From positions 1 to 32,951 of the forward strand of contig JACPQF010000011.1 of assembly GCA_016190625.1 (NCBI GenBank): a DNA stretch of 32,951 nucleotides, written 5' to 3'. Positions 7,625 to 11,868 of this stretch are shown one piece after another; positions within the stretch are counted from its first letter, which is position 1; each line of letters opens with the position of its first letter. This stretch comes from Chloroflexota bacterium (GTDB taxonomy: Bacteria > Chloroflexota > Dehalococcoidia > JACPQF01). The translations under genes were made by a program, and so were the position numbers. The notes beneath the pieces are model-generated. The model saw only the letters and a list, made by a program, of their open reading frames with translations. It was not told the origin of the DNA and did no database searches.

Positions 7625-7664
7625 TAATTCTCCTCTAATCTTGCTCTAATGACGGCGGTGTAAT
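7625..7664 (+). promoter_or_regulatory. Three 11-bp direct repeats and -10 of the lipoprotein gene
   Basis: TAAT occurs at 7625, 7636 and 7647, exactly 11 bp apart (TAATTCTCCTC, TAATCTTGCTC, TAATGACGGCG). TGTAAT (7659-7664) is a reasonable -10, so the repeats cover the -35 region. Such positioning is typical for activation by OmpR/PhoB-family regulators. The leader to the lipoprotein start would be about 80 nt. Confidence 0.65.
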
Positions 7665-7751: not shown

Positions 7752-8291
7752 ATGTCGACTATCAGAATGGCTTCGGCTATGGGATTGATAATGCTGCTCA
7801 CGCTAGTAGTTAGCTGCGCCGATCCTCCCACCAGTCCGCCCCCCGAGCCGGCGGTTAGACAAGGCATCAACTCTGTGCCCGCAGCCGCGCCAACTGTGGC
7901 TTTGGCCAATCCTCAGTCCGTTACGCCAGCCAAACAGGTGGATCCCGCCTCAACCAAGGGCCCCCGGCTGACTATCAACGCCGAGGCGGTTGATTTCGGC
8001 GAGATACCCTACTCGCAGGCCATTGCCCTGAGCTTCACCATCAAGAACGTGGGAGCGGCGCCGGTGTCCCTCGGCCCGGCCTTCATCCGCGTGAAAGAAG
8101 GCTGCTGACCGCCGAATGTCGTCGTGGGTGCCACGACCCTGAGTCCCGAACAAACCACCTTCGCTAGATTGGCCTTTGCCATGCACGAGGGAATGGGGGG
8201 AGCGCATCTTTTTGAGGTAGTGTTTCCTTCCAACGACCCCTTCGAGCCGGAGAAGGTAGTCTCGATTCGTGCCATCTGGCCCCTGCCCTGA
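7752..8291 (+). CDS. Lipoprotein with in-frame UGA, candidate selenoprotein (Cys118-Sec119)
   Basis: If UGA 8106-8108 is read through, this encodes 179 residues. The ATG at 7752 has AGAGGAAGGG just upstream and gives a proper lipoprotein signal: 'MLLTLVVSC' with lipid-anchored Cys22. The ORF-track start at 7716 lacks this support. A Pro/Ala linker follows, then a DUF1573-like Ig-fold domain ('VDFGEIPYSQAIALSFTIKNVGAAPV'). The frame meets UGA after 'VKEGC' and continues as 'PPNVVVGATTLSPEQ' through 'MHEGMGGAHLFEVVFPSNDP' to a UGA at 8289-8291. As I recall the family, relatives have 'EGCCPP' here, so UGA replaces the second Cys codon. A hairpin of SECIS geometry follows. The alternative is a recent nonsense mutation or a sequencing error. 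The neighbour is a CcdA/thioredoxin fusion, which supports a thiol/selenol role outside the membrane. Confidence 0.65.
8106..8137 (+). promoter_or_regulatory. Candidate bacterial SECIS element (UGA plus hairpin)
   Basis: UGA is at 8106-8108. GTCGTGG (8121-8127) pairs perfectly with CCACGAC (8131-8137) around a GUG loop (8128-8130). The loop begins 19 nt after the UGA and starts with G. Bacterial SECIS models require a short apical loop with an early G, a stem of at least 4 bp and roughly 16-37 nt from UGA to loop, and all three are met. The hairpin lies wholly inside the continued reading frame, as expected in bacteria. No SelB-binding test is possible from sequence alone. Confidence 0.55.
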
Positions 8292-8304
8292 CGGCCCTCG
8301 TTTC

Positions 8305-8357
8305 TCATCTTCCTTTAATCTTGGCTCCATGTGGCATTCATTTTCGCCGGCTATAAT
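8305..8357 (+). promoter_or_regulatory. 11-bp repeats and -10 of the CcdA/thioredoxin-like gene
   Basis: TCATCTTCCTT (8305), TAATCTTGGCT (8316) and CCATGTGGCAT (8327) are in exact 11-bp register. A consensus TATAAT follows at 8352-8357, 17 bp after ATGTGG (8329-8334), which occupies the -35 position. The leader to the TTG start would be about 30 nt, so this gene has its own promoter besides any readthrough from the lipoprotein gene. Confidence 0.65.
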
Positions 8358-8393
8358 TTGAGAGAAGGACCTTAAGCTCGCAGGACTGGGTAC

Positions 8394-9617
8394 TTGCAGA
8401 AAAATATCCTACCCCTCTCCATCTTGCTTCTCCTCGGCGGTTTGTTATGGCCCTCAGCGACTTTGTACGCCGACTCGCCGTCCTATCAACGCGCCACCAT
8501 CTTCTACAGCAGCGGCTGCACCATGTGCTCCGATTTCATAGACTCGGACCTCATGGGCGTGCTTCGGGCCGCCAACGTGAAGGAAGTGGTGAAGAGAGAG
8601 TATTTGAACGATGTGGCGAATCGCAAGGAACTTCAGGATTTGAACCAGCGGCTGGGAATACCACCAGATCTGCAGGGCCATATCACCACGATAATCGACG
8701 ACAGGATCGTTCTCGAAGGGCATGTGCCCAAGGGCATCATGACAGACGTTATCTTTAACACCGAGGGAGACCTGTTTCCCCGCCTAGCCGTGTATCAGGA
8801 CGACATGCACGGCGTCGCCACCACCTATCGCATCTGGGCCTGGCAGGGTGATATTCTGGAATACTCTCTGGGCACGCCGGTGAGCGCGTATTTCGGTCAG
8901 CTCAGGTCGGGCTCGCCGGGGACAGGCCGAAGCGTGAAGACCGGTTCTGGCCTGCTATTGCCGGTAGTTATCGGCGCCGGGCTGTTGGATGGCATCAATC
9001 CCTGCGCCTTCGCCGTCATGGCTTTTCTGGTCGCCTTTCTCTTCACCCTGAGGCGGACCAGGTCAAACATCCTTCAACTCGGATCAGCCTACATCCTCGC
9101 AATGTACGTTACCTACTTCCTCATTGGCCTCGGACTGCTCAAAGTGCTCGTCCTCGCCGGCTATCCTCACATCATTTCTCGCCTTGGCGCTGCCGCGGTC
9201 GTCGTTCTTGGCCTCGTCAACCTTAAGGATTATCTCCTTCCGAATCTACCTATCAAGCTTTCCATGCCCAAGGTGGGCTGGGAAACCACCAAGGGATGGA
9301 TCTCGCGGGCTACGCTGCCTTCCACCTTGATTGCCGGCGCCCTAGTGGGATTGTGCACGCTGCCCTGTTCGGGGGGCATCTATGCGGCCATCCTTGGTCT
9401 ACTGACCGCGCAGACGACCTTCATCGGGGGCCTCGGGTATCTGGCCATCTACAACCTGATGTACGTGGCGCCGCTGATCCTGATTCTTCTGGCCATCACC
9501 ACTCGACCGGTGGCCCGGAATTTGGCGATTTGGGAGAGGGCTCACAGCCGGCAAACCAAGCTCCTGTCTGGAATTATCATGCTCTTGCTCGGCGTACTCA
9601 TACTTTGGATAATATAG
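8394..9617 (+). CDS. Thioredoxin-like domain fused to CcdA/DsbD-type membrane electron carrier
   Basis: A 407-residue membrane protein. After a signal or anchor segment (about 1-26), residues 33-135 resemble a glutaredoxin/thioredoxin fold with a CTMC redox pair (Cys42, Cys45). From about residue 185 there are six or so hydrophobic segments of the CcdA/DsbD type, with 'INPCAF' (Cys204) and 'CTLPCSGG' (Cys321, Cys325). CcdA-type proteins carry electrons from cytoplasmic thioredoxin to thiol proteins outside the membrane (family knowledge). The fused CTMC domain would be the first outside acceptor. The start is a TTG with AGGA upstream. The neighbouring lipoprotein has a Cys-UGA pair, so the natural inference is that this protein reduces it. 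Confidence 0.85.
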   Translation: MQKNILPLSILLLLGGLLWPSATLYADSPSYQRATIFYSSGCTMCSDFIDSDLMGVLRAANVKEVVKREYLNDVANRKELQDLNQRLGIPPDLQGHITTIIDDRIVLEGHVPKGIMTDVIFNTEGDLFPRLAVYQDDMHGVATTYRIWAWQGDILEYSLGTPVSAYFGQLRSGSPGTGRSVKTGSGLLLPVVIGAGLLDGINPCAFAVMAFLVAFLFTLRRTRSNILQLGSAYILAMYVTYFLIGLGLLKVLVLAGYPHIISRLGAAAVVVLGLVNLKDYLLPNLPIKLSMPKVGWETTKGWISRATLPSTLIAGALVGLCTLPCSGGIYAAILGLLTAQTTFIGGLGYLAIYNLMYVAPLILILLAITTRPVARNLAIWERAHSRQTKLLSGIIMLLLGVLILWII

Positions 9618-9800: not shown

Positions 9801-10469
9801 ATGCAGCTCTTGGTTGTCGACGACGATCCTCAGATCCTGAGCCTTCTCAGGCGGGGCCTCTCTCTTGAAGGCTACAGCGTCGACCTGGCCGAGGACGGTG
9901 CGAAAGCTCTCGCCATGCTTAGAGACAAGGCGTACGACCTTGTCGTCCTGGACGTAATGCTGCCGGGTGTGGATGGCGTGGAGATCTGTCGCCGACTTCG
10001 GGCTGGCAGCGAGGTCCCCGTGCTCATGCTGACAGCGCGGGCGTCGGTCCAAGACCGGGTGGTGGGACTGGACAGTGGGGCGGACGATTATCTGGTCAAA
10101 CCTTTCTCTCTCGACGAGCTCCTGGCTAGAGTGCGGGCTCTGCTGCGAAGGCATCAGCCTTCGGCCCACACCCTCTTGCAGTTTGGCGACCTCAAGCTGG
10201 ACCCGGCCACTCGCGAAGTGTGGCGCGGGGATGAGCAAGTCCAGTTGACCGCCAAGGAGTTCGAGCTGTTGGAGCTATTCATCCGACACCCCCGCCAGGT
10301 GCTCAGCCGGGAGACCATCTATGACCGGGTTTGGGGATACGATTTCGGTGGCGAGTCCAACATCATCGAGGTGTACATCCGCTATCTCCGAACCAAGCTG
10401 GAGCCACCGGGAAAGAGCAAACTCATCCAGACTGTTCGCGGCGTCGGCTATGCCCTGCGGGAGCGGTAG
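9801..10469 (+). CDS. OmpR/PhoB-family response regulator 1
   Basis: A 222-residue cytoplasmic transcription regulator. The receiver domain (1-115) shows the acidic pocket 'VVDDDP', phospho-accepting Asp51 in 'VVLDVMLPG' and the conserved Lys in 'DDYLVKPF'. The C-terminal winged-helix domain (about 125-220) has '[12 protein letters not shown]' and 'YIRYLRTKL...[11 protein letters not shown]'. The ATG has AGGAGAG about 7 nt upstream. It is followed after 4 nt by its cognate kinase. OmpR-family regulators bind direct repeats with about 11-bp spacing, making it a candidate for the TAAT repeats found upstream of four neighbouring genes. Confidence 0.95.
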
Positions 10470-10473
10470 TTCC

Positions 10474-11868
10474 TTGTCACTCCGTCTGCGTCTAAGCCTG
10501 TCATATGCGGGCTTGCTGGGGATCGTGCTCGTCGTCTTCAGCGTTGTGCTCTATCTGACAATGGCCAAGATCTTACTAGACGAAGTCGACAGCCGCCTGC
10601 GTCTCGCCGCCTCCCAGGTACACATGTCGGTCGGCGCTGCCGACGAAAGGCATGACCTGAGGATCCTCGCCGATACTGTGTTGGGTGCACCGCTGACGAG
10701 CGAGCTCGCTGCACCGGGACTAACCGTCCAGGTGCTCGACGAGCGGGGCAGGCTCGTCGCCTCGTCTCCCAACTTGAAAAACGAGCAACTTCCCGTCGAC
10801 CCGGCGCTAGTCGATGGTGGCCTGCGTGGCGAACAGAGCGTGGCGACTCTTGCGGCGTTGGCGAAAGAGCGCGTTCGGGTCCTCACCATGCCGCTAACGG
10901 TCAACGCCAAGGTATTGGGCATCGTACAGGTGGGGCAATCCCTCCACGATACCGACATCGCCGTCGCCCGGCTTCGTCTTCTGTTGATCGCCGGCAGCCT
11001 GGCGACGATCGTCGCTGCCGGCATAGTCGGCTGGTTTCTGGCCCGAAGAGGGCTCAAGCCCATCGGCGACATCGCCGACGCCGCCCGGGAAATCGGCGAG
11101 ACCGCCGATTTCGGCCGCCGGATCGACGTGCAACTGCCGGGTGATGAGGTCGGCAGGTTGGCTACCACCTTCAACGACATGATCGAGCGAATCGAGGAAT
11201 CCTTCGAGTCACAGAAAAGGTTCGTGGCCGATTCCTCCCACGAGCTCCGCACGCCGCTGACGGTCATTCGGGGCAACGTGGACTTGCTAAAGCGGCCGCT
11301 GGGCAACGAGGACCGGCGCGAATGTCTCTCCGCCATCGAAAGTGAGGCGGAACGCATGAGCAATATCGTAGCCGAGCTGTTGCTCCTAGCCCGGCTGGAC
11401 TCGGCGCAGGAGTTCGATAGACAACCTGTTGAACTCGACACCCTTCTTCTCGAAGTTTACAGACAAGCGAAGGTCATGGCGCAAGGTAGACGCCTGCTGC
11501 TCGGCCACGAGGACTGCGCCGTCGTTACCGGCGACCCCGGCCGGCTGAGGCAAGTCCTCTACAACCTGGTGGACAACGCCACAAAGTACAGCGGCGAAGA
11601 AGCCACTATTACCCTCTCCCTTCATAGGTTGGACGGCTGGGTCCGGGTCGACGTCGCAGACACGGGCGTTGGCATCGCCGCCGAGGATCTGCCGCACATT
11701 TTCGACCGGTTCTACCGGGTGGACAAGGCCCGGTCGCGCGCCACCGGCGGCACCGGCCTCGGCCTCACCGTAGTCAAGCAGATCGCCGAAGCCCACGGGG
11801 GCAAGGTGACTGTTTCCAGCGCTCTCGGCAAGGGCAGCACTTTTTCCGTATGGCTGCCGCTGACCTAA
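10474..11868 (+). CDS. Membrane sensor histidine kinase 1
   Basis: A 464-residue transmembrane kinase partnered with the upstream regulator. The ORF track begins at 10321 inside the regulator gene. I choose the TTG at 10474, which directly precedes 'SLRLRLSLSYAGLLG' and lies 4 nt after the regulator stop. Two membrane segments (about 10-32 and 168-192) flank an extracytoplasmic sensor region of roughly 135 residues. HAMP (about 190-245), HisKA with phospho-accepting His256 in 'SSHELRTPL', and HATPase_c with N box 'NLVDNATKYS', 'DTGVGI' and 'GGTGLGL' follow. The stop codon forms part of the first 11-bp repeat upstream of the PDZ gene. The stimulus is unknown; position suggests envelope or redox stress. 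Confidence 0.93.
   Translation: MSLRLRLSLSYAGLLGIVLVVFSVVLYLTMAKILLDEVDSRLRLAASQVHMSVGAADERHDLRILADTVLGAPLTSELAAPGLTVQVLDERGRLVASSPNLKNEQLPVDPALVDGGLRGEQSVATLAALAKERVRVLTMPLTVNAKVLGIVQVGQSLHDTDIAVARLRLLLIAGSLATIVAAGIVGWFLARRGLKPIGDIADAAREIGETADFGRRIDVQLPGDEVGRLATTFNDMIERIEESFESQKRFVADSSHELRTPLTVIRGNVDLLKRPLGNEDRRECLSAIESEAERMSNIVAELLLLARLDSAQEFDRQPVELDTLLLEVYRQAKVMAQGRRLLLGHEDCAVVTGDPGRLRQVLYNLVDNATKYSGEEATITLSLHRLDGWVRVDVADTGVGIAAEDLPHIFDRFYRVDKARSRATGGTGLGLTVVKQIAEAHGGKVTVSSALGKGSTFSVWLPLT

Follow-up and report, generated by a model that had tools for sequence, protein, structure and literature searches.

A Chloroflexota lipoprotein with a Cys-Sec pair in a DUF1573-type fold and the adjacent CopG-like/CcdA-type fusion gene

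We describe here a new DUF1573-type selenoprotein, a lipoprotein of Chloroflexota in which selenocysteine (Sec) follows a Gly-Cys pair (GCU). Its gene lies in a 32,951-nucleotide stretch of DNA from a Dehalococcoidia genome (the window, meaning this whole stretch), where it precedes by about 100 bp a gene fusing a CopG-like domain to a CcdA-type channel (Table 1); this gene order, lipoprotein and then channel, makes a functional link plausible. A Sec at the GCU position of a DUF1573-type fold is absent from the 119-family selenoprotein inventory of 2026 (PMC13188914), which counts differing Sec positions as distinct subfamilies, and it is undescribed in the literature searched, whose coverage is incomplete; with the same proviso, the fusion also appears to be undescribed. 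The finding adds a well-validated selenoprotein subfamily, tied to copper and cytochrome assembly and found in some 5-8% of the Chloroflexota genomes sampled (793 in total, 400 from the phylum and 393 from the class), which is easily missed by gene callers because its UGA reads as a stop. The fusion offers a concrete and directly testable possible route for electrons to copper sites beyond the membrane.

Table 1. Features of the two genes and their surroundings in the window.
Feature	Coordinates	Strand	Evidence or remark
Possible response-regulator half sites CTCTAATCTTG-CTCTAATGACG, upstream of lipoprotein	7633..7654	+	weak
Lipoprotein gene, 179 aa, one in-frame UGA	7752..8291	+	ATG 7752, stop 8289-8291
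Lipobox Cys22 (LVVSC)	7815..7817	+	sequence; lipid anchor inferred from lipobox pattern
Cys118 codon and UGA (Sec119, 8106-8108), motif EGC-U-PP	8103..8108	+	invariant in alignment
SECIS hairpin: 6-bp stem 8121-8126/8132-8137, apical loop GGUGC 8127-8131	8121..8137	+	covariation
Met/His motif MHEGMGGAH, residues 144-152, putative soft-metal ligands	8181..8207	+	conservation
Possible matching site CTCATCTTCCTTTAATCTTG, upstream of fusion	8304..8323	+	weak
CopG-like domain and CcdA-type channel fusion gene, 407 aa	8394..9617	+	TTG start 8394
CTMC motif (Cys42, Cys45)	8517..8528	+	aligned in three relatives of the N-terminal domain
CcdA-like channel, residues 185-407; Cys204 (NPCA), Cys321 and Cys325 (LCTLPCSG)	8946..9614	+	invariant Cys
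OmpR-family response regulator (9801-10469) and histidine kinase (within ORF 10321-11868)	9801..11868	+	possible regulator

Results

The lipoprotein UGA is read as selenocysteine

The lipoprotein was found in 24 of the 400 phylum genomes, where nearly all loci contain exactly one internal TGA, always within a C-U-P motif that mostly reads EGC-U-PP, and its profile matched 37 of the 393 class genomes, again with one TGA in most. Across the 793 genomes more than 50 relatives carry a single UGA at the identical GCU spot, and Cys replaces Sec in three sequences (L169, L174 and the L186 paralogue). The SECIS hairpin, whose apical loop is of the GGUNC type across relatives, is backed by covariation: 97.5% of the stem cells are paired in 27 phylum sequences, with two-sided changes at all six pairs, a level of pairing reached in none of 500 shuffles, and shifting the pairing partners abolishes the signal. 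All six pairs also form in 26 Sec sequences of the class, with four displaced by one codon through an insertion, and the hairpin is absent from the three Cys forms (0-2 of 6 pairs). The host genome encodes both selB, above the cut-off, and a tRNA-Sec (69.8 bits). Taken with the conserved UGA, the Cys homologues and the SECIS, this machinery establishes that the codon is read as Sec; a plain stop codon or a pseudogene is ruled out by the first three of these observations. The Rfam scan of the window returned no match.

Fold and motifs of the lipoprotein

An AF2 model (pLDDT 86.7) predicts an Ig/ASH (PapD-like) domain for residues 64-179, the nearest structural match being 2qsv (Z 12.5); a PDB search with the lipoprotein profile led to ciliary HYDIN-type Ig domains and again to 2qsv, matches that inform on fold only. 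In sequence comparisons the protein is DUF1573-like, yet it falls under the cut-off of that family, scoring 18.3 bits against PF07610 (gathering cut-off 26.1); all 27 family members match DUF1573 at E<0.1 (best 1.8e-11). The window lipoprotein had no match to NF041425 (OS_HP2) at E<=0.1, and its best-scoring relative reached 37.7 bits against a cut-off of 100 bits. A wider search of genome contigs with the lipoprotein gave a Planctomycetaceae DUF1573 relative as its sole match, and a search of plasmids gave none.

Residues M144, G147, M148, G150 and H152 are each at least 90% conserved in the lipoprotein alignment, and the Met/His motif is missing from one paralogue that keeps the CU pair (L052). 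This motif may bind a metal. PCuAC is absent from the Pfam matches of the 27 members, and its chaperone motif, H(M)x10Mx21HxM, differs from the MHEGMxGxH of the lipoprotein. The model places Cys118-Sec119 in a loop (CU loop, 117-122) within the order strand, CU loop, strand, strand, loop 144-149, strand, from which the CU loop and the Met/His loop probably share one end of the sandwich, provided that residues 105-116 form a single bulged strand.

The fusion protein and a CopG-like paralogue

The second protein is, as judged from sequence and model matches, a CcdA-type channel with a predicted exported domain of thioredoxin fold. The top Foldseek match of its AF2 model, of moderate confidence (pLDDT 76), was CcdA (5vkv, E 0.014, 25% identity over 226 alignment columns), and C204, C321 and C325 are invariant in 16 aligned channel sequences; the window channel thus combines the predicted CcdA fold with a redox Cys in each pseudo-repeat (C204 and C325, and also C321). 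Comparison of the fusion with PDB sequences gave no match, and the window fusion did not match PF02683 (DsbD_TM) at E<=1, for which a second complete fusion, in genome G192, scored 16.8 and a relative in L106 scored 31.1 (cut-off 27.1).

Residues 30-161 gave as best structural match CopG (6wis, Z 10.0, 113 of 124 residues, 3.0 A), followed by a second CopG structure (6wje, Z 9.4), with ordinary thioredoxins at about 7-8. Sequence matches to CopG were weak (DUF411 in the G192 fusion, E 5e-4; 6wis, E 0.58). CopG is a copper-thiol oxidoreductase with a copper cluster bound by CxCC (PMC7558416, PMC8456105); this motif is absent from the N-terminal domain, which has CTMC instead. The model comparison thus points to a CopG-type thioredoxin fold, and a common fold proves no function. 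The original prediction, which described a UGA-bearing Cys-Sec lipoprotein followed by an exported thioredoxin-like domain fused to a CcdA-type channel, had the coordinates and residues of both proteins right, including all five Cys of the fusion, and its observation is confirmed.

Elsewhere in the host genome, a CopG-like lipoprotein paralogue (L104:6879-7640, G000:C113) has a UGA at the position of Cys42 (SPD-U-HDC, UxxC) and a SECIS-like hairpin in matching register, and it is likely, from its sequence, the second selenoprotein of this genome. A CPH-type P-type ATPase (L104:4064-6217) is encoded close to it.

Genomic neighbourhoods of the relatives

A PCYCGC gene (PF13798) occurs near 18 of 28 phylum lipoprotein loci, in six families, and near none of 20 control loci (p 1.8e-6); these controls were other retrieved stretches, mostly around CcdA-like genes and thus non-random, and the loci are mutually related. 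The same gene accompanies 14 of 31 class lipoprotein loci. In nine genomes of one family, COX2/CuA proteins (PF00116, C-x3-CG-x2-H-x2-M) are encoded 1-3 kb upstream of the lipoprotein, usually two of them and mostly together with an Fe-S membrane protein; the CuA link is limited to this family in the phylum sample, and the class sample holds two more CuA-motif neighbours. In two other families the genes downstream of the lipoprotein belong to cytochrome c maturation: CcmE and CcmF, assigned by Pfam, are directly downstream in G121, with matching genes in G029 and G002. Copper-transport domains (HMA domains or Cu-type ATPases) are found near the lipoprotein at several loci, and the closest relatives of the channel often sit behind membrane-anchored cupredoxins, members of its subfamily adjoining cupredoxin or DUF1573 genes. 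The host genome carries cytochrome c maturation (Ccm) genes; in its assembly, which is 64.9% complete, neither a COX2 domain nor PCYCGC was found, the control for the PCYCGC search being silent.

The partnership of the two window proteins is only partly borne out. The neighbourhood survey, on which the original prediction had staked this partnership, found the two families rarely together: the complete CopG-like/CcdA fusion is present in 2 of the 400 phylum genomes, and in the phylum and class samples it stands beside an EGC-U lipoprotein in the window only. Two DUF1573 (CGCT) genes flank the fusion in G192, and G411 has a CcdA-like gene immediately next to a DUF1573 gene. At the level of whole genomes, the channel subfamily and the lipoprotein show a weak co-occurrence (5/21 against 35/378, p=0.048, uncorrected for relatedness).

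Sequences upstream of the two genes

The promoters of both genes had been predicted to be controlled by repeats. The 11-mer CTYTAATCTTG has exactly two copies in the window (7633 and 8313), one upstream of each gene, and its 7-bp half site is repeated 11 bp off, at 7644. Nevertheless, 0.61 matches are expected by chance when up to one mismatch is allowed, 14 of 100 shuffles gave at least two, and the repeat finder detected no family of direct repeats upstream of the two genes; the common 11-mer is thus a weak hint of joint regulation. The regulator directly downstream (9801-10469) matches PF00072 and PF00486, and the kinase was assigned from its ORF alone; it is possible that they control the gene pair. 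Regulators of the OmpR and kinase families, some with Met-rich sensors, occur near the lipoprotein in other genomes.

Discussion

A proposed role in the handling of copper or thiol sites

The copper and cytochrome assembly genes around the relatives suggest that the pair probably reduces, or keeps reduced, copper or thiol sites outside the membrane, and does not work as a peroxidase. We regard it as an evenly balanced proposition that the two genes form an extracytoplasmic copper/thiol handling pair for the assembly of respiratory proteins, with the fusion as the probable reductant. In such a pair, the membrane-anchored Ig-fold lipoprotein would display the vicinal Cys118-Sec119 near the Met/His loop, and it would bind Cu(I), reduce the Cys pairs of CuA-type or c-type cytochrome partners, or both; electrons would pass from cytoplasmic thioredoxin through the channel (Cys204, Cys325/321) to the CTMC domain, which would hold the Cys-Sec pair, or its copper, in the reduced state. 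There are precedents for this logic: during CuA assembly TlpA reduces and Sco or PCuAC load the site, some of these chaperones being beta-fold proteins, and Cox11 has two Cys on an Ig-like fold (PMC7558416); several known CU motifs occur in metal-linked selenoproteins (PMC13188914). The chain originally drawn from thioredoxin via the channel and CTMC to the lipoprotein is thus partly supported, by the Sec, the channel, the redox-type domain and the gene order, and is weakened by the rare co-occurrence. Counting against the copper/thiol reading are the unique adjacency, the loss of Met/His in L052, CTMC in place of CxCC, the pLDDT of the fusion model, the COX2 and PCYCGC searches of the host assembly and a CuA link that concerns mainly one family.

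Among the specific forms that this reading may take, it is tempting to speculate on an extracytoplasmic relay for copper delivery based on selenium, in which the CopG-CcdA protein would re-reduce a Cys-Sec/Met/His lipoprotein, the latter loading Cu(I) onto, or reducing, respiratory CuA or cytochrome partners. We put this forward tentatively; if true, it would be, as far as the literature searched shows, the first selenoprotein metallochaperone of a respiratory chain. Clearly less probable in our estimation than the copper/thiol pair is a relay of pure thiol reduction, free of metal, from the channel through CTMC and the Cys-Sec lipoprotein to CcmH or the CxxCH of apocytochromes. CcdA serves cytochrome c maturation in other organisms, which fits this alternative, as do the Ccm genes of the host and those adjoining the lipoprotein in G121 and matched in G029 and G002. 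However, the majority of the neighbourhoods hold PCYCGC or copper genes and not Ccm, the N-terminal domain resembles CopG and not CcmG, a vicinal Cys-Sec pair is an unusual geometry for a reductant, and the conserved Met/His motif would be left without explanation.

It seems unlikely that the lipoprotein is a genuine metal-related selenoprotein next to an unrelated CopG-CcdA gene, their adjacency being a local accident. The rarity of the fusion, a pairing unique to the window and the spacing of the genes, which probably have separate promoters, would all agree with such an accident, but copper and redox contexts are common to both proteins, the identical 11-mer precedes both genes, and both G192 and G411 have DUF1573 genes next to CcdA-like ones. 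As to the extracytoplasmic selenoperoxidase or oxidised-protein repair system of the original prediction, Sec with a CcdA-type electron supply could be catalytic, yet nothing specific favours this improbable reading: an Ig/ASH domain is no peroxidase or repair fold, comparisons with Pfam and structures found no known peroxidase domain in the window proteins, no peroxiredoxin or Msr gene was seen among the recurrent neighbours of the lipoprotein, and its persistent partners, PCYCGC, CuA, copper and Ccm genes, point to copper and cytochrome assembly instead of peroxide removal or repair.

Relation to known systems

The closest known selenoprotein is OS_HP2, a DUF1573 selenoprotein (PF07610, NF041425) with the motif UGC, which has been known since 2008 (PMC2398784) and is also listed in the 2026 inventory (PMC13188914). 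Both are exported proteins with the same Ig-like DUF1573-type domain and Sec in a matching region of the fold; in OS_HP2, however, Sec replaces the first Cys of CGC, whereas in the window lipoprotein it follows GC, and the new family has the additional MHEGMxGPH motif. With the transmembrane domain of CcdA/DsbD the window channel shares six helices and one conserved Cys per half, and it differs in its NPCA and LCTxPCSG motifs, the additional invariant Cys321 and the N-terminal exported domain. The latter resembles CopG (DUF411) in its thioredoxin fold, GHVP motif, export and the copper neighbourhoods of relatives, but it has CxxC, is fused to a channel and stays under any Pfam cut-off in sequence similarity. 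The likeness to TlpA, Sco, PCuAC and Cox11 is an analogy of function, these being membrane-anchored redox or copper proteins that have Met/His ligands or a Cys pair and in some cases a beta-fold (PMC7558416); no sequence relation to the window proteins was found, and CuA genes are adjacent mainly in one family.

Variants among the relatives

Several loci deviate from the common arrangement. In L176, L177 and L179 two DUF1573-like domains stand in tandem, with the Sec motif confined to the second, and in L180 an apparent rhodanese-type segment (RALVDLGFTNVWNLEGGFVGWEAQGY) precedes the Sec domain within a shared open frame. In L168 the lipoprotein and PCYCGC genes stand one after the other in a common reading frame, and a readthrough frame thus links both. 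L043 and L060, at the start and end of one contig (G112:C1), have near-identical lipoprotein neighbourhoods, one with a broken frame, and are probably the overlap of an unclosed circle combined with a sequencing error. Finally, L193 and L194 are DUF1573-like proteins with two in-frame UGAs each (GG-U-S-U-G and GG-U-M-U-G) where relatives carry CGCG, which may represent a double-Sec variant.
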